Of a stretch of 64,000 nt of DNA, positions 39,822 to 49,248 are shown in pieces (the first letter of the stretch is position 1; each line of letters begins with the position of its first letter). Origin of the DNA: Streptomyces mirabilis. Its GTDB lineage: Bacteria; Actinomycetota; Actinomycetes; Streptomycetales; Streptomycetaceae. The translations under genes were made by a program, and so were the position numbers. The stretch is taken from the NCBI RefSeq assembly GCF_039503195.1, contig NZ_JBCJKP010000001.1, positions 2,604,001-2,668,000 of the forward strand. The letters run 5' to 3'. The notes beneath the pieces are model-generated. The model did not search any database. It saw only the letters and a program-made list of their open reading frames with translations, and had not been told where the DNA came from.

Positions 39822-40664
39822 TCAGAGCAGCGTGCGCTCCCCCGCCGGAACGGCCACGCCCAGGGTGTTCCCGGGCGGCGGGAAGGGGCAGATGAAGTGG
39901 TCGGCGAACGCGCACGGCGGAAGCACGGCCCGGTTGAAGTCCACCGTCGTACGCCCCTCGGCGTCGGGCGCGGCGGGGCGCAGGAACCGGAAGCGGTAAC
40001 TGCTGTCCCCGCTGGTGGTGTCGGCGAACACGGCCCACAGCGAGCCGTCACTCTCCACCGACACCTGGAGCGTGAGGTCCTCGCCGTCCAGGGTGAAGGC
40101 GAGGATGCCGCCGAGCCCCAGACCGCGGGCGACTCCGTCCGCGTTCTCCACATGTACGGTCCGGCTCTCGCCGTACGGCGTGAAGTGCCCCGGCACCGAC
40201 CAGCGAGGGTCGTACGGCGTCGCCTCGACGCCCTTGAAGGCCGCGCGCGCCTCGGAGGCGGGGTCGAAGTCGCGTACGCCCCAGATCCCTTCGCGCACCA
40301 GGACGACGAACCGGCGCTCGTCGAGCCCGACCCGGGCGTCGGCCGCCGACCCGGGGTCGGCGTCGAGCCGGACCTCGCCGGTGAAGGGCTTTCCGTCCAG
40401 GCTCAGCCCGTCCTCGGGGGCGGCCGTCAGCAGGACCCCGTCCTCCTGGTCGGTCCACAGCCCGGGGATGTCCGGAAGTCGCCCGTCCGGATAGTCCTCC
40501 AGCCAGTGCGTGCCGGTGAGTGCCAACGGGCCGTAGGAGCCGGACACCGTCTCGACGCGGCGCTCGTGCCACCGTTCCCAGTCCTCGGATGCGTCGTCGA
40601 ACACGTCTGCGGATGTCCCGTCAGATACGTCTGCGGATGCGTCTGCGGATGCGTCTTTCGTCAT
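39822..40664 (-). CDS. DUF1684 domain protein, last gene of the organosulfur operon
   Basis: A 280-residue cytoplasmic protein of the DUF1684 family. It contains HERRVETVSGSYGPLALTGTHWL, SLDGKPFTGEVRLDAD, GIWGVRDFDP, TPYDPRWSVPGHFTPY and the characteristic C-terminal TVDFNRAVLPPCAFADHFICPFPPPGN. The conserved FNRAxxPPCAF segment, with Cys and metal-ligand-like residues, suggests an active site, but no activity is known to me. The first 25 residues are DASAD repeats from a 12-bp microsatellite. The ATG lies 4 bp after the stop of the flavin monooxygenase gene, so the genes are coupled and a shared pathway is very likely. Confidence 0.88.
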   Translation of the reverse strand: MTKDASADASADVSDGTSADVFDDASEDWERWHERRVETVSGSYGPLALTGTHWLEDYPDGRLPDIPGLWTDQEDGVLLTAAPEDGLSLDGKPFTGEVRLDADPGSAADARVGLDERRFVVLVREGIWGVRDFDPASEARAAFKGVEATPYDPRWSVPGHFTPYGESRTVHVENADGVARGLGLGGILAFTLDGEDLTLQVSVESDGSLWAVFADTTSGDSSYRFRFLRPAAPDAEGRTTVDFNRAVLPPCAFADHFICPFPPPGNTLGVAVPAGERTLL

Positions 40665-40668
40665 GTGA

Positions 40669-41967
40669 TCAACCCTTCCATACGGGTTCCGGCAACCCGA
40701 GGTGTGAGCGCAGCGTCGTGCCTGTGTATTCCGTGCGGAAGGCGCCCCGCTCCTGGAGCAGCGGGACCACCCGGTCCACGAACTCGTCCAGTCCGCCCGG
40801 GGTCAGATGGGGGACGAGGATGAAGCCGTCGGCGGCGCCGGCCGTCACGAACTCGTCGAGTTCGGCGGCGACCGTCTCCGGCGTGCCGACGAAGGACTGC
40901 CGCCCGGACGCCTCGATCACGGTCTGCCGGATGGACAGCCCCTTCGCACGCGACAGGGCCCGCCACCTCTCCGCCACCGCGAGGGGGTCGGCGACGCGCA
41001 CCCGCCCCCGCGCGAGGGCCGGCGCCGGCTCCGGGTCGATGTCGGGCAGGGGCCCGTCGGGGTCGTACGAGGAGAGGTCGACACCCCAGATCCGCTCCAG
41101 CGCGAGGAGCGCGTTCTGCGGGGAGACCTGCCGGTGGCGGATCTCGGCGGCCCGCTCCCGCGCGTCCGCCGCGGTGTCACCGAGCACGACGGTGACACCG
41201 GGCATGATCTTCAGGTCCTCGGGCGACCGCCCGTACGTCGCCAGCCGCCCCTTCACATCGGCGTAGAACTCCCGGCCGGCGTCCAGGGTCCCGCGCCGGG
41301 TGAAGACCACGTCCGCCGTGGCCGCGGCGAACTCCCGGCCCTCGTCCGAGTCCCCGGCCTGGATGACGACGGGCTGCCCCTGCGGTGAGCGCGGCAGCCC
41401 GAACTCCCCCGCGATGTCGAAGTGCCGCCCCTGATGGGCGAAGGGGCGCGCCACGCCTTCCGGCGTCCAGGAGTCCCACAGATCTCGTGCGGTGGCGACG
41501 AACTCGGCGGCGCGCGCATACCGGTCCGCGCGGTCGAGGAAGCCGCCGCGGCGGAAGTTCTCCCCGGTGAAGGCGTCGGAGGAGGTGACCACGTTCCAGG
41601 CGGCCCGGCCCCCGCTGAGGTGGTCCAGCGTGGCCAGTCTGCGGGCGAGTTCGTAGGGCTCGTTGAAGGTCGCGTCGACCGTGGCGGCGAGCCCGAGCCG
41701 CTCGGTGACGGCGGCGAGTGCGTTGAGCACGGTGATCGACTCCGGTCGGCCCACGACGTCCAGGTCGTGGATGCGCCCCTTGTACTCGCGCGGCCGCAAT
41801 CCCTCGGCGAGGAAGAAGAAGTCGAACAGGCCGCGTTCGGCGGTGCGCGCGAGGTGTTCGAAGGAGGCGAAGTCGATCTGGGACTTGGAGCGCGGGTCGG
41901 TCCAGACGGTGGTGCTGTTGACGCCCGGGAAGTGCGCCGCCAGATGCATGCGCGTACGTACGGTCAT
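40669..41967 (-). CDS. FMN-dependent monooxygenase, NtaA/SnaA/DszA family (LLM class)
   Basis: A 432-residue bacterial luciferase-like monooxygenase. The group signature is present: HLAAHFPGVNSTTVW, FFLAEGLRPREYKGRIHDLDVVGRPES, VDATFNEPYELARRLATLDHLSGGRAAWNVVTS, and the flavin-binding QGQPVVIQAGDSDEGREFAA. These two-component enzymes use FMNH2 from a separate reductase and O2 to oxidise C-N or C-S bonds (nitrilotriacetate, dibenzothiophene sulfone, S-alkyl-cysteines). Its ATG overlaps the stop of the second LLM gene (ATGA). Within this operon a C-S cleaving role on an imported organosulfur compound is the best inference. Confidence 0.92.
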   Translation of the reverse strand: MTVRTRMHLAAHFPGVNSTTVWTDPRSKSQIDFASFEHLARTAERGLFDFFFLAEGLRPREYKGRIHDLDVVGRPESITVLNALAAVTERLGLAATVDATFNEPYELARRLATLDHLSGGRAAWNVVTSSDAFTGENFRRGGFLDRADRYARAAEFVATARDLWDSWTPEGVARPFAHQGRHFDIAGEFGLPRSPQGQPVVIQAGDSDEGREFAAATADVVFTRRGTLDAGREFYADVKGRLATYGRSPEDLKIMPGVTVVLGDTAADARERAAEIRHRQVSPQNALLALERIWGVDLSSYDPDGPLPDIDPEPAPALARGRVRVADPLAVAERWRALSRAKGLSIRQTVIEASGRQSFVGTPETVAAELDEFVTAGAADGFILVPHLTPGGLDEFVDRVVPLLQERGAFRTEYTGTTLRSHLGLPEPVWKG

Positions 41968-43043
41968 GACGCTCCCCCTGTCACGGCGTACTGGTTGGCG
42001 GGCCGGGCCAGCCCCAGGTGCTCCCTGAGCGTGCTGCCCGGATAGAAGGTGCGGAACAGACCGCGGTGCTGGAGCAGCGCCACCGTTCCGTTCACGAGCC
42101 GCTCCAGGTCACGGTGCGGCTCGACCGGGGTGAGGTGGAAGCCGTCGACGGCCTCGGACGCGTGCCAGGCGGCGATCAGTTCGGCCAGGTCGACCGGGCC
42201 GCCCCGGTACAGCGGCCCCTGCGCGGTCTGCCGGGGACCGCCACCCCCGTGGCCCGGCTCGGCCGCGCGTTCCCCGTCGCCGAGGTCGACGACGAGTGAG
42301 CCGAGGACCCGCAGGGTGTCGGCGTCGCGGCCGAACTTGGCTGCCGCGTCCCGGAGTTCGGCCCGTACGGCCCGGGCGTGCGCGGGTCCCACGACCCGGA
42401 CGAGCGCCACGTCGGCATGCCGGGCGGCGACCCGCCGGGCGGGCCCCTCGGTGGCGTCGACGACCCGGACGGGGTGGCCCTGCGGGGGCCGCGGCACGAT
42501 CGAGGGGCCCTTCACGAAGAAGGTGGCGCCCTGGAAGTCGACGTGGTGCAGCTTGTCCCGGTCGACGAACCGGCCGGTGGCCTCGTCGCGTATCTCGGCG
42601 TCGTCCTCCCAGCTGTCCCAGAGCCGGGCGGCCACCTCGGCGATCTCGCCGGCCTCCCGCCACAGCGCGTCGGCGGGTGCCGCGTGCCGGCGGCCGAAGA
42701 GTCGGGCCTCGCCCTCGGTCGTCGACACGTCGAGCTGCCAGCCGGCCCGGCCGCGGCTGACCCAGTCGAGGGTCGCCACCGCCGCCTGGACGTGGAAGGG
42801 CTCGGTGTGGGTGGTGGTCACGGTCGGCACCAGACCGATCCGGCGGGTGGCGGGCGCGACACGGGAGAGCACGGCGAGCGCGTCGGGCCCGGGGCGCGCG
42901 AAGGTGTCGCCGAGCGTCACGAAGTCGAGCCCGCCACGCTCCGCGAGCTGCGCCGGCCCGACGTACGAGGCGGCGTCGAAGGCCGCCTGTTGATCGAGGG
43001 CGGCGGCCAGGTGCAGCAGCCCCCGGCCGTGCGGTGCGGTCAT
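41964..43043 (-). CDS. Second LLM-class flavin-dependent monooxygenase
   Basis: A 359-residue luciferase-like flavin monooxygenase from a different subgroup than its neighbour. GLLHLAAALDQQAAFDAASY, AERGGLDFVTLGDTFARPGPDAL, ATLDWVSRGRAGWQLDVSTTEGEARLFG and HPVRVVDATEGPARRVAARH mark the barrel. It carries an insertion of about 60 residues (GERAAEPGHGGGGPRQ region) before the last helix. AAAGG precedes the ATG, 51 bp after the ABC ATPase stop. Paired LLM enzymes of this kind occur in operons for sulfur scavenging, where one acts on the imported substrate and the other on its product. The order of action is not deducible. Confidence 0.9.
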   Translation of the reverse strand: MTAPHGRGLLHLAAALDQQAAFDAASYVGPAQLAERGGLDFVTLGDTFARPGPDALAVLSRVAPATRRIGLVPTVTTTHTEPFHVQAAVATLDWVSRGRAGWQLDVSTTEGEARLFGRRHAAPADALWREAGEIAEVAARLWDSWEDDAEIRDEATGRFVDRDKLHHVDFQGATFFVKGPSIVPRPPQGHPVRVVDATEGPARRVAARHADVALVRVVGPAHARAVRAELRDAAAKFGRDADTLRVLGSLVVDLGDGERAAEPGHGGGGPRQTAQGPLYRGGPVDLAELIAAWHASEAVDGFHLTPVEPHRDLERLVNGTVALLQHRGLFRTFYPGSTLREHLGLARPANQYAVTGGAS

Positions 43044-43094
43044 ATCGGGTGAAACCTTTCTCCGGTCATCCGATCAGAGCTCCCTGGTGAGGGA

Positions 43095-43856
43095 TCAAAG
43101 AACCTTGGACAGGAACGACCGCGTCCGTTCGTGCCGCGGCCGGTCGAGTACGTCACCGGGGGCGCCCTGTTCGACGATCCGCCCGTCGTCCATGAAGACG
43201 ACGGTGTCGGCGACCTCCCGGGCGAACCCGATCTCGTGCGTGACGACGATCATCGTGGTGCCTTGGTGGGCCAGGTCCTTGATGACGTCGAGGACTTCGC
43301 CGACCAGCTCGGGGTCGAGCGCCGAGGTCGGCTCGTCGAAGAGCAGCAGCTTCGGTCCCAGGGCGAGCGCGCGGGCGATGGCGACGCGTTGCTGCTGGCC
43401 GCCGGAGAGCTGCTTCGGGTAGGAGTCGGCCTTGTCGGCGAGCCCCACCCGGTCGAGCAGCGCCCGCGCCGCCTCGACGGCGTCCTTGCGCGGACGCTTC
43501 AGCGCGGAGACCGGGGCCTCGACGAGGTTGTCCAGCACGGTGAGGTGCGGGAAGAGGTTGAAGTTCTGGAAGACGAACCCGATGCGGGTGCGCTGCCTCA
43601 GGATCTCGCGCTCGCGCAACTCGTACAGCTTGTCGCCGGAGCGCCGGTAGCCGACCAGCGAGCCGTCGACGCTGATGCGGCCCCGGTCCACCTTCTCCAG
43701 GTGGTTGATGGTGCGCAGCAGCGTGGACTTGCCGGAGCCGGACGGGCCGAGGATCACGGTGACCTCGCCGGTGCGCACCGCGAGGTCGATGCCCTTGAGC
43801 ACCTCCAGTGGGCCGAAGCTCTTGTGGACGGACCTGATGTCGACCATGAAGGTCAT
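43095..43856 (-). CDS. Amino-acid-type ABC transporter ATP-binding protein (GlnQ/TcyN-like)
   Basis: A 253-residue ATPase of the polar-amino-acid importer family. Motifs include Walker A GPSGSGKSTLLRTINHLE, the Q-loop FVFQNFNLFPHLTVLDN, signature QLSGGQQQRVAIARALAL, Walker B LLLFDEPTSALDPELV, the H-loop IVVTHEIGFAREVADTVVFM, and DGRIVEQGAPGDVL. AAGGGA lies upstream of the ATG at 43856; a second ATG three codons on is possible. It lies between the FAD protein and the monooxygenases. With the permease (45654-46511) and the divergent solute-binding lipoprotein it makes a complete importer. Confidence 0.93.
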   Translation of the reverse strand: MTFMVDIRSVHKSFGPLEVLKGIDLAVRTGEVTVILGPSGSGKSTLLRTINHLEKVDRGRISVDGSLVGYRRSGDKLYELREREILRQRTRIGFVFQNFNLFPHLTVLDNLVEAPVSALKRPRKDAVEAARALLDRVGLADKADSYPKQLSGGQQQRVAIARALALGPKLLLFDEPTSALDPELVGEVLDVIKDLAHQGTTMIVVTHEIGFAREVADTVVFMDDGRIVEQGAPGDVLDRPRHERTRSFLSKVL

Positions 43857-43902
43857 CGCGTGAATCCCTTGTACTGGCAGTGGAGTTGACGGTCGGGATG
43901 GG

Positions 43903-45657
43903 TTACGCGACGGCCCGGCACGCAAGGTCGCGCAGGAACACCAGCGCGGCTCGCGCGGTGGCGTCGTTCTGCCGGAACGCCGGCCCGCCGGTGCGCGGCC
44001 GGGTGAAGGCGCCGGGGGTACGTACGTCGGTGTAGGGCCCGAGTGCGAAGCGCCGCGGATGCGGCCGGCCGCCCCGGTCGAGGATCCGCCCGTCGGAGCG
44101 GTCCACCCGCAGCAGCCCCTCCGGGGTCTCGACGGCCCCGTCGTCGTGCAGTTCACGCAGCAGCGGGTCGAGGGCCCGCCCGACGGTGGGCTCGGGCAGC
44201 CGCGCCTCGACGAGCGCCCGCGCCTCGATCGTCTCGCCCGGCACGGTCGCGCTCGACGCCCGGAACACCCCGTCCTCGGCGACCACGGCCACGTCCGCGC
44301 CCACGAACCGCACGACGCCGGCCCGGGAGAGCGCGAGCATCTGCCGCAGCCGGGGTCCGGGCGGCCCGGAGGCGAGGTGGCTGAAGAAGCCGTGCCACCA
44401 GGGTCCGACGTCTCCGAGCCGGATCAACTGCCCGTAGACGGAGAGGAGTCCGAGAAAGACGGCCAGGTCAGGGCTGTTTCCGGGATCATGGCGGCGACGC
44501 AGATCTCCCTCGACGTACGCCCGGAGCCCGTCCTGGAACTCCTCGTGCGACGCGTACCGCGCCCCGTCCAGCGGACGGTCGAGCGCCGCGAGGTCGAGCC
44601 GGTCGGCGGGGTCGGGCACGGCGGATGTCACGAGCGCCTCGCGCTCCGCCGCCTCCCCTGCCGCGTACTTCTCCTCGAAGTCGGTCCAGGCGATCGCCGT
44701 CCGTTCGGGGTGGACGGTGAACAGCCGGTGGTAGTGCGCGAACCCCAGCTCCTTCTGGATCGACGGCCACACGTCCCGCCGGAAGTCGAAGCCCTCCGGC
44801 CGCGCCAGCAGCGCGTCGACCTCGGCGGGCCCGAAGAACCGTGGCAGCGGCGGCCGTTCACCGGTCCAGTCGTAACCGATCTTCGAGTGGTACGGCACTC
44901 CGCGCCGCGATCCGACGTACAGCACCGGTTCCCGCCCCGACGGAAGGTAGGTGTCACCGTCGTACCGCCCGCCCCGCCCCTCCGTGAGCAGCACCATCAG
45001 GTCGACGAAGGCGAGCCCGAAGCCGCGCACGAGGACGGGTTCGCCGGGCGCGAGCGAGGACAGGTCGCTGTCGGCGGTGAAGTCGGGCGGCAGATGGACC
45101 AGGTCGTGGGCATGGGCGTACGTCGCCAACTCGCCCTGCTCCTCGTCGAGTTCGGCGTCGAGGTGGCCGATCGTGAGAACGACGAGGTCGGCGAGGAGGG
45201 GACGCGGACGGCCCTCCAGCCACACCTGCTGGCGCCCCTCGCGCGGGCCGCTGACACGCAGGGCCCTGCACGGGTGATGGTGGACGGTGACGTCCGGCGG
45301 CAGGGCGGCCACGGCCTGCTCGTGCACCCAGCTCAGGTATGCCCCTTGCAGCTGCCGGTCGGCGAAGGTACGGCCGTCGATGGCCGCCCATTCGTGCAGC
45401 GTGGGACCGGGGCGCACGGGCCCGTCCATGACCACCGTCTCATCGGTGAACATGGTGACGTCCTCGGCGTGCGAGTTCATCCACAGCAGCGGCGACTGCG
45501 CCTCGCGCCAGATGCGTCCGGCGCCCGGCGGATAGGGGTCGACGAGATGGATGTCGAGTCCCGAACCGGCGTACAGCTCGGGCGCGTTGGCGGCGATGCG
45601 TTCGATGAGACCGGTCCCCCGCGGCCCGGCCCCGACGATCACGAGAGAGGGCTTCAC
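43903..45657 (-). CDS. FAD/NAD(P)-binding protein of the NAD_binding_9 family
   Basis: A 584-residue flavoprotein-like enzyme. The N-terminal dinucleotide motif is VIVGAGPRGTGLIERIAANA, followed by DIHLVDPYPPGAGRIWR and WMNSHAEDVTMFTDE. A second nucleotide-binding segment is LVVLTIGHLDAELDEEQ, with VLVRGFGLAFVDLMVLLTEG further on. This family (FAD-NAD(P)-binding, HI0933/lysine-hydroxylase-like) includes N- and S-oxidising enzymes. The GTG at 45657 overlaps the permease stop (GTGA), so the gene is placed inside the importer operon. It may oxidise the imported compound itself; it has no flavin-reductase domain, so it is unlikely to be the FMNH2 source for the LLM enzymes. Confidence 0.85.
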   Translation of the reverse strand: MKPSLVIVGAGPRGTGLIERIAANAPELYAGSGLDIHLVDPYPPGAGRIWREAQSPLLWMNSHAEDVTMFTDETVVMDGPVRPGPTLHEWAAIDGRTFADRQLQGAYLSWVHEQAVAALPPDVTVHHHPCRALRVSGPREGRQQVWLEGRPRPLLADLVVLTIGHLDAELDEEQGELATYAHAHDLVHLPPDFTADSDLSSLAPGEPVLVRGFGLAFVDLMVLLTEGRGGRYDGDTYLPSGREPVLYVGSRRGVPYHSKIGYDWTGERPPLPRFFGPAEVDALLARPEGFDFRRDVWPSIQKELGFAHYHRLFTVHPERTAIAWTDFEEKYAAGEAAEREALVTSAVPDPADRLDLAALDRPLDGARYASHEEFQDGLRAYVEGDLRRRHDPGNSPDLAVFLGLLSVYGQLIRLGDVGPWWHGFFSHLASGPPGPRLRQMLALSRAGVVRFVGADVAVVAEDGVFRASSATVPGETIEARALVEARLPEPTVGRALDPLLRELHDDGAVETPEGLLRVDRSDGRILDRGGRPHPRRFALGPYTDVRTPGAFTRPRTGGPAFRQNDATARAALVFLRDLACRAVA

Positions 45658-46511
45658 CGGGTGCGCTCCGAGCCGCGCGCGTAGTGCTTCTCGACGTAGT
45701 ACTGGCCGAGGCCGAGGACGGAGGTGACGACGGTGTACCAGATGGTGGCGACCATCAGCAGCGGGATGACCTGGTAGGTGCGGTGGTAGACCAGCTGCAC
45801 CGAGAAGAGCAGGTCCTGCACGGCGATGACGCTGATGATCGAGGTGCCCTTGAGGGTGCCGATCAGCATGTTCCCGGCGGGCGGCACGAGGGAGCGCATC
45901 GCCTGCGGCAGCACGATCCGCCACCAGCGGCGCCACCGGCTCAGACCGAGCGCCTGCGCGGCCTCGATCTGCCCGCGGTCGACGGAGAGGATGCCACCGC
46001 GCACCACCTCGGCGGCGTACGCGGCCTCGTGCAGGGTGAGCCCGATGATCGCGACCGCGATCGGGGTGAACAGATTGACCGTCTTCACGCCGAGGAGCTC
46101 GGGATACAGCGCCCCGATGTTGAACCACAGCAGCAACTGCACCAGGATCGGAATCGACCGGAACAGCCACACATATCCCCAACTGACGCTGCGCAGCACG
46201 GGATTGGCGGACAACCGGGCCGCCGCGAGCAGCGTCCCCAGCGCGAAGCCGAGCACCATCACCACAGCGGTCAGCCACAGGGTGAGCCACAGGCCGCGCA
46301 GCACGGAGTCCGAGGTGAAGTAGTCACCGACCACCCCCCACTGGAACGCCTTGTTGCGGACCACGGAGGTGACGGCGAGCCCGAGCAGGACGAGTACGGC
46401 GACGGCTGCCGTCCACTGGCCCAGTCGGCGCTGCGGAACGATCCGCAGGGAGTCGGCCTGCTCCGGTATGTCCGGTGCGGCGGATGTTTTGGCGAGGGTG
46501 TCGGAAGACAT
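45654..46511 (-). CDS. Amino-acid-type ABC transporter permease (HisM/TcyL-like)
   Basis: A 285-residue permease. A 45-residue cytoplasmic N-terminus (ending RIVPQRRLGQW) precedes five or six helices. The first (TAAVAVLVLLGLAVTSVVR) is an extra one before the family domain. The HisMQ core shows SDSVLRGLWLTLWLTAVVMV, YVWLFRSIPILVQLLLWF, LTLHEAAYAAEVVRGGILSV and the EAA loop EAAQALGLSRWRRWWRIVLPQ. It is the first gene of the minus-strand operon. The ATG at 46511 has GGAG about ten bases upstream. It diverges from the binding-protein gene across 433 bp of regulatory DNA. Confidence 0.92.
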   Translation of the reverse strand: MSSDTLAKTSAAPDIPEQADSLRIVPQRRLGQWTAAVAVLVLLGLAVTSVVRNKAFQWGVVGDYFTSDSVLRGLWLTLWLTAVVMVLGFALGTLLAAARLSANPVLRSVSWGYVWLFRSIPILVQLLLWFNIGALYPELLGVKTVNLFTPIAVAIIGLTLHEAAYAAEVVRGGILSVDRGQIEAAQALGLSRWRRWWRIVLPQAMRSLVPPAGNMLIGTLKGTSIISVIAVQDLLFSVQLVYHRTYQVIPLLMVATIWYTVVTSVLGLGQYYVEKHYARGSERTR

Positions 46512-46710
46512 GCGAAGACTCCGTGACGTAGTCGAACACGGGTGGATGCCTTCACACGAAGCGCCTCGCGGCGCAGTACGGCCGAGCCCCTCAGCAGGGC
46601 CGTCCACCGAGAGTACGGGCCCGTTTCCCCCGCTGTCAAGGCTGTCCATACTGTGAGCCGTACGTCTCAAGTCGGTTGACGCACAACCGGATGCCTGTTC
46701 CACTTGCCCC

Positions 46711-46782
46711 ATGCATCCACAGCAGTGGCTGGTCAAGCGCTCCCACATCGACTTCGGTCGAGTGTGGTCCTCTTCCTGTTGA
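46711..46782 (+). CDS. 23-residue leader peptide, probable cysteine-responsive attenuator
   Basis: The ORF MHPQQWLVKRSHIDFGRV continues WSSSC and stops directly after a TGT Cys codon. The KRxHIDFxRVxSxxC pattern matches short leader peptides that I recall being annotated upstream of sulfur-metabolism genes in streptomycetes ([RK]RHVDLxRVxSxxC). It lies 163 bp before the binding-protein ATG and is too short to be an enzyme. Ribosome stalling at the terminal Cys codon when Cys-tRNA is scarce would be the natural switch. A ribosome site is not obvious. Confidence 0.7.
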   Translation: MHPQQWLVKRSHIDFGRVWSSSC

Positions 46783-46808
46783 GCTGACCCACTGCGCGCC
46801 CCGATCGC

Positions 46809-46824
46809 TTGATCCCCTGATCAA
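46809..46824. promoter_or_regulatory. Inverted repeat between leader peptide and binding-protein gene
   Basis: TTGATC (46809-46814) pairs with GATCAA (46819-46824) around 4 bases. It could be part of an attenuator structure or a protein-binding site. Confidence 0.35.
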
Positions 46825-46944
46825 TCCGATCGCCCGATCCCTTGGTCGACCGGGCGCCCTTCGCGTTCTCCCTCCCTCTCGCCTTCACACGCGCACCCCT
46901 CCCCTCGGGTTCTGCTCACTCTTGCTCTCAGGAGACCGCACACC

Positions 46945-47898
46945 ATGCGTACGTCCACGCGTACCCGTTATCGGCATTTTGCGCCTTTTGCCCTCATCAC
47001 CTCGACGGCCCTGCTCCTCACGGCATGCGGCTCCGGCTCGGACGACACGACCGGCGCCGCGGCGAATGCGGCGGCCAAGGCCGACAAGATCCCCACCACG
47101 GACGTCGTCTCGGCCGTCCCGAAGGACGAGGCCGCCGCCAAGCTGCTCCCGTCCGGCGTCACCAGCCTCACCGTGGCGGTCGCCGTCGGCGGTACGCCAC
47201 CCGGAACGACGTACCTGGACGACGGCAAGACGCTGACGGGCCAGGACGTCGACTTCGCGGACGCCGTGGCCAAGGTGCTCGGTATCGAACTCAAGACGGA
47301 ACAGGCCGGTTTCGAGGCGATCCTGCCGGCCCTGGACAGCGGCAAGTACGACTTCGGGGCCAGCAACTTCGGTGTCACCGACGAGCGGCGCAAGACGATC
47401 GACTTCGTCACCTACATCAACGACGGCCAGGGCTTCGCCACGCGCTCCGACAGCAAGTTGGCCAAGATCACCGACCTCGATCAGCTGTGCGGCCTGAACG
47501 TCGCGACCGGAGCGGGCACCACTTTCGAGGCGACGCTGGAGGAGAACAAGAAGGTCTGCACCGACGCCGGCAAGAAGGCGTACAAGGTGCAGACCTACAG
47601 CGAGCAGGGCGCGATCTGGTCGTCACTCCAACAGGGCCGCAGCGACCTCGTGATGAGCACCATCAACGGCCTGCGCTACGCCGTCGCCCACCAACAGGGC
47701 GTCAAGTTCCTCAACGAGTACCACCGCCTCGACGTCGGCTTCGCCTTCAAGAAGGACACGAAGCTGGCACCGGCCTTCCAGGCGGCGGTGAACAAGCTGA
47801 TCGCGGACGGCACGTACGACAGGATCCTCAAGAAGTGGGGGACGACGGGTTCCGCGATAGGGAAGTCGCAGATCTCGCCGCCGGAACTGAAGAACTAG
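46945..47898 (+). CDS. Solute-binding lipoprotein of an amino-acid-type ABC importer
   Basis: A 317-residue periplasmic-binding-protein type 3 lipoprotein. The lipobox LLTAC (Cys near residue 28) ends the signal peptide and anchors it to the membrane. The PBP domain shows LTVAVAVGGTPPGTTYLDDG, LTGQDVDFADAVAKVLGIEL, GFEAILPALDSGKYDFGASN, DERRKTIDFVTYINDG, and closes with FQAAVNKLIADGTYDRILKKWG. TDERR and the Asp in the GQDVDFADA region are positions that contact amino-acid ligands in this family. CAGGAG precedes the ATG. The gene diverges from the permease operon and lies behind a Cys-ending leader peptide. A terminator follows. The ligand is probably a cysteine derivative, by inference. Confidence 0.92.
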   Translation: MRTSTRTRYRHFAPFALITSTALLLTACGSGSDDTTGAAANAAAKADKIPTTDVVSAVPKDEAAAKLLPSGVTSLTVAVAVGGTPPGTTYLDDGKTLTGQDVDFADAVAKVLGIELKTEQAGFEAILPALDSGKYDFGASNFGVTDERRKTIDFVTYINDGQGFATRSDSKLAKITDLDQLCGLNVATGAGTTFEATLEENKKVCTDAGKKAYKVQTYSEQGAIWSSLQQGRSDLVMSTINGLRYAVAHQQGVKFLNEYHRLDVGFAFKKDTKLAPAFQAAVNKLIADGTYDRILKKWGTTGSAIGKSQISPPELKN

Positions 47899-48012: not shown

Positions 48013-49248
48013 TCACAGTCCGCAGTCGCAGCACGAGCAGCATTCACAGCACTCGCAGATCTCACAGGCTTCGCAGCAGCTGCAGTCACAGTCGCAGTTG
48101 CCGAGGCAGCCCTCGCGCCTCCTTCGCGACCACGGCCCCTCGAACTCGTCGGCACAGCACACCTTGCAGGTGCAGCACAGCCCGATCGCGGCCGCGCACC
48201 CCGCCCAGAAGCCTCGCCTGCCGGGCCCGGACGGCGGGAAGGAGGGAGCACCGCCGAAGGGGTTGCCGCCACCGGCGTAGGGATTCTGCCCGTCGTTCGG
48301 GCTCTGCGGGCTCTGCGGGTTGTACGGCCCACCGTGCTGCGGCGGCCCGAAAGCCCCCCGCGGACCGTCCTCGTGGTCCTGGTGCCCGCATCCCGAGGTC
48401 CCGAACGCGCGGTCCACCGATCGCCCCAGCTCGTGCGCGAGCAGCAGATGCGCCAGCTTGCCGTCCGTGAACTCCACCTCGCGCAGCGCGAGCCGTATTC
48501 CGTGCAGAGCGTCATCGGCGAGCCGGCGCGCCTCCACGAGCGGGGTGCCGGTGGCCGTGAGCGGGTTCCAGGCTCCCGACGCGGCGTCAGTTTCCCGGTC
48601 CTCCACGGCGTCCAGCAGATGCGCGAGCCGCCCGAAGAGCCGGCCGGCCTCGGCGAGCGGCTCGGCGTTGCCCGGCCGCCCGGCCAGGACGGCCGTGTGC
48701 GCGAACGCGGCGGCGGTCGCGGTCTCGGTGGGCTCGGTGACGGTCAAAAGCGGCGTCCCGGGACCGGCGAGCGCCTCGATGCCGACCTGCCGGTCGACGG
48801 CGTCGACGAGCACGGCGGTGTCGAAGCCCACGTCGGATCCGGTACGGGCCCCGGCGCGCCCCCAGCTCGCGGCGACCCGGCGGGCGGCGAGCGCCACCGG
48901 CCTGCGCGCCAGCAGCCCGTCCTTGTCCGCCACGTGGTCGCGCACCTTGGCCGAGGCCAGCACCAGCGAGACGGCGGCTGCGAGGCGGGCTCCCTCACCC
49001 TGTGCGACGGATGCCGTCCGCATCCCGCGCAACGGGCACGGCCCCGCCGTACGCCGCCACGCGGTGGTGCGCTCGACCTGAGCCTCCGTCAAAACCGATA
49101 TCAGCAGCCCGTCGTAATTGGTGACAACCCGAGCGAACTGTCCGTGGTCTCCGCGCAACGCGAGACAGAGTCCGCACAGATGCGCCATCCACTGCGTTTT
49201 GAGCCCCTCGCCGAGGCGGTGGCTGCAGGGCCTCACTATTCCGAACAC
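48013..49248 (-). CDS. DUF5685 family protein with a 21-cysteine C-terminal tail
   Basis: A 411-residue protein. The N-terminal DUF5685 region (MFGIVRPCSHRLGEGLKTQW, MAHLCGLCLALRGDHGQFAR) has paired Cys in CGLC and a mostly helical body (LLARRPVALAARRVAAS and others). After a Gly/Pro/Asn linker the last 66 residues hold 21 Cys in CCTCKVCC, NCDCDCSCC and ECCECCSCCDCG clusters. Such density implies metal (zinc, copper or iron-sulfur) binding or disulfide storage. GTG at 49248 has GGGGGAG upstream. The function is unknown; the family is actinobacterial and close to cell-division gene sflA here, from which it diverges. Confidence 0.88.
   Translation of the reverse strand: MFGIVRPCSHRLGEGLKTQWMAHLCGLCLALRGDHGQFARVVTNYDGLLISVLTEAQVERTTAWRRTAGPCPLRGMRTASVAQGEGARLAAAVSLVLASAKVRDHVADKDGLLARRPVALAARRVAASWGRAGARTGSDVGFDTAVLVDAVDRQVGIEALAGPGTPLLTVTEPTETATAAAFAHTAVLAGRPGNAEPLAEAGRLFGRLAHLLDAVEDRETDAASGAWNPLTATGTPLVEARRLADDALHGIRLALREVEFTDGKLAHLLLAHELGRSVDRAFGTSGCGHQDHEDGPRGAFGPPQHGGPYNPQSPQSPNDGQNPYAGGGNPFGGAPSFPPSGPGRRGFWAGCAAAIGLCCTCKVCCADEFEGPWSRRRREGCLGNCDCDCSCCEACEICECCECCSCCDCGL

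Follow-up and report, generated by a model that had tools for sequence, protein, structure and literature searches.

A probable cysteine-controlled organosulfur acquisition locus with an FzmM-family flavoprotein and a paired luciferase-like monooxygenase in Streptomyces mirabilis

A 64,000-nucleotide stretch of the Streptomyces mirabilis genome (contig NZ_JBCJKP010000001.1, positions 2,604,001 to 2,668,000; hereafter the window, to which all coordinates refer unless stated otherwise) contains a split, divergent locus at 39822 to 47898 that probably serves the cysteine-controlled acquisition of organic sulfur. Its minus strand codes for a DUF1684 protein of 280 amino acids (39822-40664; PF07920, 135.5 bits versus a gathering score of 25), a large NtaA/YtnJ-type, flavin mononucleotide (FMN)-dependent luciferase-like monooxygenase (LLM1, 40669-41967; TIGR03860, 408.2 bits, cut-off 279.7), its small partner LLM2 (41964-43043; TIGR03860, 236.7 bits and thus under the cut-off), an ATP-binding cassette (ABC) transporter ATPase of the polar amino acid type (43095-43868; PF00005; best NCBIfam model TcyN with 322.4 bits, below the cut-off of 406), a predicted flavin adenine dinucleotide (FAD)- and NADPH-dependent monooxygenase of the FzmM family with a NAD_binding_9 domain and an altered substrate pocket (43903-45657), and an ABC transporter permease of the HEQRo type (45654-46511; PF00528, TIGR01726 above cut-off). 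From the DUF1684 gene to the permease gene, the junctions are a gap of 4 bp, an overlap of 4 bp, gaps of 51 and 34 bp, and an overlap of 4 bp; thus, four of the five overlap or are shorter than 50 bp, as originally predicted. The plus strand carries a Cys-ending leader open reading frame (ORF, 46711-46782; MHPQQWLVKRSHIDFGRVWSSSC followed by a stop codon), a C-rich, G-poor, rut-like tract (46829-46906), and the gene for an SBP_bac_3 binding lipoprotein (46945-47898; PF00497) that lacks the expected α-ammonium aspartate. All seven genes and their strands, as well as the leader ahead of the binding-protein gene, agree with the original prediction. The assignment is based on this gene content, on the conservation of the leader and its sulfur-gene company, on family and clade of the flavoprotein, on the pairing of the LLMs, on a Cx7C motif of the DUF1684 protein, and on binding-protein residues; from these we infer the direction of regulation, the ligand, the catalytic steps, and the role of the DUF1684 protein.

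For comparison, 80 loci were fetched via the flavoprotein; one of them carries the title Actinobacteria bacterium, and all others are titled Streptomyces. The leader was kept in 79 of the 80 loci. All 47 loci that have the binding protein contain it, as do 32 of the 33 for which no binding protein was matched; the sole exception (L034) is a 3.2-kb contig. When the leader was recounted in the 77 loci detected by its pattern, it comprised 23 codons in 76 and 22 codons in one, and always ended in Cys. As it is kept across the fetched loci, the leader is not a chance ORF. A profile search of the host genome with NF042936, the NCBIfam model for the Cys leader Ms4527A of mycobacteria, gave 10 places at E values up to 10; neither the window leader (20.7 bits, E = 2e-4) nor any other match reached the curated cut-off of 45 bits. 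The five matches at E < 0.05 comprised the window leader and four other ORFs preceding a nitrite/sulfite-reductase-family gene, a 2-oxoglutarate-Fe(II) oxygenase, SfnG (602.8 bits, above cut-off), and an ssu-type ABC gene. A less significant match (E = 0.17) was located ahead of a small gene and a cysteine synthase (above cut-off), and another one (E = 0.87) ahead of a second LLM2-LLM1 pair; of the last three matches (E = 0.5 to 6), one was on the opposite strand of the same neighbourhood (8.69 Mb), and no clear sulfur gene was seen at the other two. In two other families (L139 and L172), a Cys-ending leader directly precedes an operon that includes the LLM pair. The predicted import and oxidation of organosulfur compounds in conjunction with a Cys leader is well supported by this conservation and sulfur-gene company. 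At around 8.70 Mb (L158:5342-11968), the host genome also has a Cys leader and an LLM2-LLM1 pair together with a second importer of the amino-acid type and its binding protein; the genes listed there include no match to the flavoprotein or to DUF1684.

The window leader shares with the mycobacterial Cys-leader attenuators of the Ms4527A type the short, conserved, Cys-ending ORF before sulfur genes, with a model match below cut-off. It differs in having one or two terminal Cys codons instead of a run, and in belonging to a split, divergent locus, where it precedes the binding-protein gene. When 255 nt around the leader (46690-46944) were folded as a single sequence (z = -3.44), a possible hairpin fell within the coding part (bases 46741-46767); no intrinsic hairpin terminator was detected downstream of the leader. 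Likewise, in PMC1262725, no hairpin terminator was detected for mycobacterial cys operons, and Rho-dependent attenuation was suggested. In the window, the tract at 46829-46906 is the best 78-nt segment of the gap between leader and binding-protein gene, with 0.17% of all 78-nt segments in the 64 kb being equally skewed; the median C:G ratio ahead of the binding-protein gene was 2.6 (47 loci). By analogy, this tract would fit a Rho-dependent attenuation. In 32 of the loci L011-L087, in which the binding-protein gene is gone or broken, the orphan leader is nearly unchanged and lies mostly a few hundred bp upstream of the flavoprotein gene; it may overlap a divergent promoter. On the opposite strand, a frame (MWER..HCCGCM..) running down from position 46748 was found in 78 loci; it has 52 codons in 55 of them and ends in Cys in 53 of these 55. 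In the other 23 it has a different length or no stop, and in the window it is broken and runs into the permease gene. Variability is about equal across its codon positions. The frame might serve the enzyme operon as a second leader or be a by-product of DNA conservation in this block.

The NAD_binding_9 flavoprotein had been considered to have no definable role, which has to be revised. It is a full-length homologue of the L-aspartate N-hydroxylase FzmM (8CP2, 39% identity) with the FAD and NADP(H) domains and the helical substrate domain of the FzmM/CreE enzymes (nitrosuccinate synthases). According to PMC10404684, FzmM oxidises the α-amine of an amino acid, and Arg266, Arg409, Arg412, Asn413, and Arg416 cluster at its entry chamber. 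In the window type (close relatives), these residues are replaced by Lys, a gap or Leu, Tyr, Gly, and Ile/Val, respectively; the cluster is intact in 15 of 42 aligned family rows. The equivalents of Arg13 and Arg577 are kept in 17 of 19 and 19 of 19 window-type rows, and the window-type flavoproteins form a clade apart from the FzmM types (100/100). Judged from homology, clade, and pocket residues, the protein belongs to the FzmM-family monooxygenases and has a changed pocket; the pocket for the aspartate side chain has been lost in its clade. The host genome has a second FzmM-family gene (L118, G000:C1:3475381-3477186). Its product is 75% identical to 8CP2, contains the whole Arg/Asn cluster, and is probably a real aspartate N-hydroxylase.

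The window-type clade also differs from the FzmM/CreE enzymes in its organosulfur neighbours. Using LLM1 and LLM2 as queries, an LLM gene was found within 8 kb of the flavoprotein in 13 of 19 window-type loci, and in 15 of 19 once three additional LLM queries, taken from two of these loci, were included; the corresponding numbers were 1 of 15 for FzmM types and 0 of 8 for other family members under either query set. An importer was nearby in 11 of 19, 0 of 15, and 0 of 8 loci, respectively. A SsuD-like LLM stands beside the window-type flavoprotein in L114 (below cut-off), L115, and L160, accompanied in L114 by a SsuA-type gene (above cut-off); L129 has a SfnB-like gene (below cut-off) and L139 a rhodanese-domain protein. 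The Ssu-type neighbours, together with binding proteins that lack the α-ammonium Asp, would suit the import of a nitrogen-free sulfonate, sulfone, or thioether carboxylate, with the flavoprotein acting as S-oxygenase or in a Baeyer-Villiger-like manner and the LLM pair as desulfonating enzyme. We regard this as a possible, though unlikely, scenario, because LLM1 is of the NtaA/YtnJ type and not of the SsuD type, and because the importer family usually carries amino acids. GNAT acetyltransferase genes adjoin the window-type flavoproteins in L161 (12689-13240) and L116 (10335-11060).

The two LLMs, initially assigned to different subgroups, are both nearest to the NtaA/YtnJ group and represent the large and the small members of one conserved pair. 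The closest solved structure to LLM1 is YtnJ (1yw1, E = 3e-81), and the aligned LLM2-type proteins lack a segment of around 60 residues present in the LLM1 types. In the two-chain LLM entry 7e36, an NtaA-type chain B of 421 amino acids is combined with a smaller chain A of 324 amino acids; LLM1 matched chain B with 264.6 and chain A with 92.4 bits, whereas LLM2 matched chain A with 129.5 (7e36_A, E = 1e-36) and chain B with 85.8 bits, YtnJ still being its best match (164.7 bits). Across 296 genomes sampled class-wide, 108 had LLM1-like proteins (E 1e-60), 111 LLM2-like proteins (E 1e-30), 114 DUF1684 proteins (E 0.001), and 40 FzmM-family proteins, both types taken together (E 1e-40). For the 87 stronger LLM1 matches used for neighbourhood counts, LLM2 was found within 6 kb in 70, on the same strand in all 70 and upstream in 63. 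In the fetched Streptomyces loci, the median identity of LLM2 to that of the window was 58.8% in 24 loci without an intact LLM1 and 81.7% in 37 loci with LLM1; the same split gave 82.8% versus 84.7% for the flavoprotein (p = 0.08). In seven phylogenetically independent pairs, a shift of LLM2, defined by an LLM2-to-flavoprotein identity ratio below a threshold of 0.9 that we chose ourselves, went in the same direction in 6.5 on average and in the opposite direction in 0 (median p = 0.016). The median ratio of nonsynonymous to synonymous substitution rates (dN/dS) of LLM2 was 0.47 in LLM1-less loci (21 pairs) versus 0.27 in those with LLM1 (19 pairs), and that of the flavoprotein 0.25 versus 0.20, with pairs that share loci and are hence not independent. 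Because LLM2 diverges where LLM1 is lost, it seems to depend on LLM1, and the two probably form one heterodimer. In another locus, a frame resembling by eye a transposase fragment is located between the LLM1 and DUF1684 genes (L164:12036-12437).

The NtaA and EDTA monooxygenases belong to the same LLM family, and the binding protein matches opine-binding proteins, among others. Both facts would suit a nitrogen-catabolic function, in which an amino-polycarboxylate or an opine-like compound is imported and its C-N bond cleaved by the NtaA-like pair. The Cys leader with its sulfur-gene company and the sulfur neighbours of the flavoprotein relatives make this very improbable.

The nature of the cargo was assessed by aligning 63 binding proteins, partial copies excluded, with AncQR and GlnPQ. 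In HisJ/GlnBP-like binding proteins, we take it that an Arg holds the carboxylate of the ligand and an Asp its α-ammonium group. The Arg was kept in 63 of 63 sequences, and an acidic residue at the position of the Asp in 0 of 63; this position is occupied by Ser-Thr in 52 of 52 binding proteins of the first type and by Gly/Ala-Pro in 11 of 11 of the second type. The residue pattern argues for a carboxylate without a free α-amine as cargo rather than a plain S-alkyl-cysteine, and the claim that the ligand resembles a free alkylated cysteine is not borne out for either type. The salvage of free S-alkyl-cysteines, in which an FzmM-like α-N-oxidation would replace the N-acetylation known from Bacillus, is therefore unlikely in our view, even though the importer is of the polar-amino-acid type and a fuller operon version with two binding proteins, two permeases, and one ATPase exists in L075 and L084; the window copy has neither the second permease nor the second binding protein. 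The α-amine oxidation by FzmM (PMC10404684) would also suit this route.

With the Arg present and the Asp missing, the cargo may instead be N-blocked and mercapturate-like. In such a salvage, which we consider rather unlikely, an N-acyl S-substituted cysteine would be converted to a sulfoxide by the flavoprotein or attacked directly by the LLM pair, C-S cleavage would yield N-acetylcysteine, and a housekeeping amidohydrolase would release cysteine; no N-acetyltransferase would be needed, because the substrate arrives acylated. The loss of the aspartate side-chain carboxylate cluster from the flavoprotein with retention of the Arg13 and Arg577 equivalents is in line with this route, as is the proximity of LLM1 to YtnJ, which acts on N-acetylated S-(2-succino)cysteine. 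On the other side, the role of the missing Asp is transferred from HisJ/GlnBP structures and other binding modes are possible, a free amine would be in keeping with the GNAT genes that adjoin the flavoprotein in L161 and L116, and there is no deacylase among the operon genes.

The parallel drawn earlier to the ytmI-ytnM locus of Bacillus subtilis (tcyJKLMN/cmoOIJ/snd) for S-(2-succino)cysteine utilization is supported by part of the gene set. Both loci have a YtnJ-type LLM plus a second LLM, combined in the window with a TcyJKLMN-type importer whose models, including the best ATPase model TcyN, stay below NCBIfam cut-offs; the fuller operons L075 and L084 also match in the number of importer components. 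The Bacillus locus additionally comprises an N-acetyltransferase, the redoxin YtnI, RibR, and a deacetylase, and is controlled by YtmI and CymR. The window has the FzmM-family flavoprotein and the DUF1684 protein in their place, its LLM2 is a shortened YtnJ-type protein, and the Cys leader takes the position of YtmI/CymR control. Neither an N-acetyltransferase nor a deacetylase was found among the seven genes of the locus.

In the DUF1684 protein, Cys251 and Cys259 (Cx7C) are invariant in 18 of 18 aligned relatives. Its predicted model (pLDDT, predicted local distance difference test, 90.8) matches haloarchaeal DUF1684 structures, one of which was solved with mercury. The same Cx7C motif occurs in Haloferax HVO_1043, which is grouped with thiol-relay genes in PMC9426492.

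Most of the fetched loci are flanked by a DUF5685 gene on one side and the gene of a streptogrisin-like protease on the other. In the window, the DUF5685 protein (48013-49248) has a very Cys-rich C-terminal tail and adjoins the sulfur locus. In L011, L015, and L026, conservon-like genes (by eye, a sensor ATPase, a small GTPase, and neighbours) lie between DUF5685 and leader, and the importer is missing. The host genome has a size of 11.1 Mb; the flavoproteins of S. diastatochromogenes and S. olivochromogenes are 98% and 96% identical to that of the window. DUF1684 is intact in 41 of the 61 loci with both flanks, and at least 12 and at least 15 state changes were counted on the flavoprotein tree for LLM1 and the binding protein, respectively. 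The idea of one indivisible system is not supported: LLM1, the binding protein, and DUF1684 come and go, and the flavoprotein stays constrained. Its dN/dS of 0.15 for L017/L018, where LLM1 and the importer are gone, indicates that it keeps a function even without them; its own loss is invisible in this set, as the loci were fetched via the flavoprotein.

Several observations weigh against the assignment to cysteine-controlled organosulfur acquisition. Within the 72 nt of the leader (49 distinct versions), mean variability amounted to 2.0, 3.7, and 7.9% at codon positions 1, 2, and 3, third positions thus varying little too, and the leader survives in 32 loci without a binding-protein match; both points suggest that part of its conservation may serve something else. 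A clear leader is found only ahead of the binding-protein gene with the enzyme operon being divergent, and the leader pattern occurred in 5 of 16 LLM-pair loci scanned, three of which share the locus type of the window. Of the 19 window-type flavoprotein loci, about half are the same Streptomyces locus, and four have no LLM gene nearby by any query (one, L175, at a contig end). Neither an FMN reductase nor a desulfinase was found among the operon genes using Pfam and NCBIfam profiles. The full seven-gene set is present in 14 of the 61 loci with both flanks (L075 and L084 being two of them), with components lost singly. Finally, a DUF1684 gene was located within 10 kb of only 13 of 87 LLM1 matches, counted with part of the DUF1684 list.

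Cysteine-controlled organosulfur acquisition remains the probable function, and a working model can be outlined. Under a shortage of charged Cys-tRNA, ribosomes would stall on the terminal codon(s) of the leader. This would relieve an attenuation that, given the lack of a detected hairpin terminator, is probably Rho-dependent or translational, and so allow synthesis of the binding lipoprotein. The ABC importer would then take up a small sulfur-containing carboxylate, to be oxygenated on sulfur or nitrogen by the FzmM-family flavoprotein with NADPH and O2. The LLM1/LLM2 pair, presumably acting as one FMNH2-dependent enzyme, would cleave the C-S bond and deliver the sulfur to the cysteine pool, with DUF1684 as a putative accessory thiol/redox protein. 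The cargo may be an N-blocked cysteine thioether, a nitrogen-free organosulfur acid, or a free S-alkyl-cysteine.

The retooled FzmM-type clade within sulfur clusters is the part specialists would not expect. Actinomycetes shed mercapturates (N-acetyl-S-alkyl-cysteines) from mycothiol detoxification. It is conceivable, if quite speculative, that this clade was recruited from nitrogen-oxide biosynthesis to sulfur scavenging and, together with a heterodimeric YtnJ-type LLM and binding proteins rejecting free α-amines, salvages such mercapturates. In the literature searched, with most subscription journals outside its coverage, no paper dealing with FzmM together with sulfonate was found; nor was the oxygenation of the sulfur or amine of a cysteine derivative by such a flavoprotein, which, if true, would be a chemistry new to that literature. 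DUF1684 was named in one paper of that literature. Within the aspartate N-hydroxylase family, the window-type NAD_binding_9 proteins now stand out as a defined clade whose pocket differs and whose context is sulfur-related, and DUF1684 gains a partner, the LLM pair, in part of its range. If the model is true, the locus shows a route by which soil actinomycetes recover sulfur from organic matter or detoxification waste.

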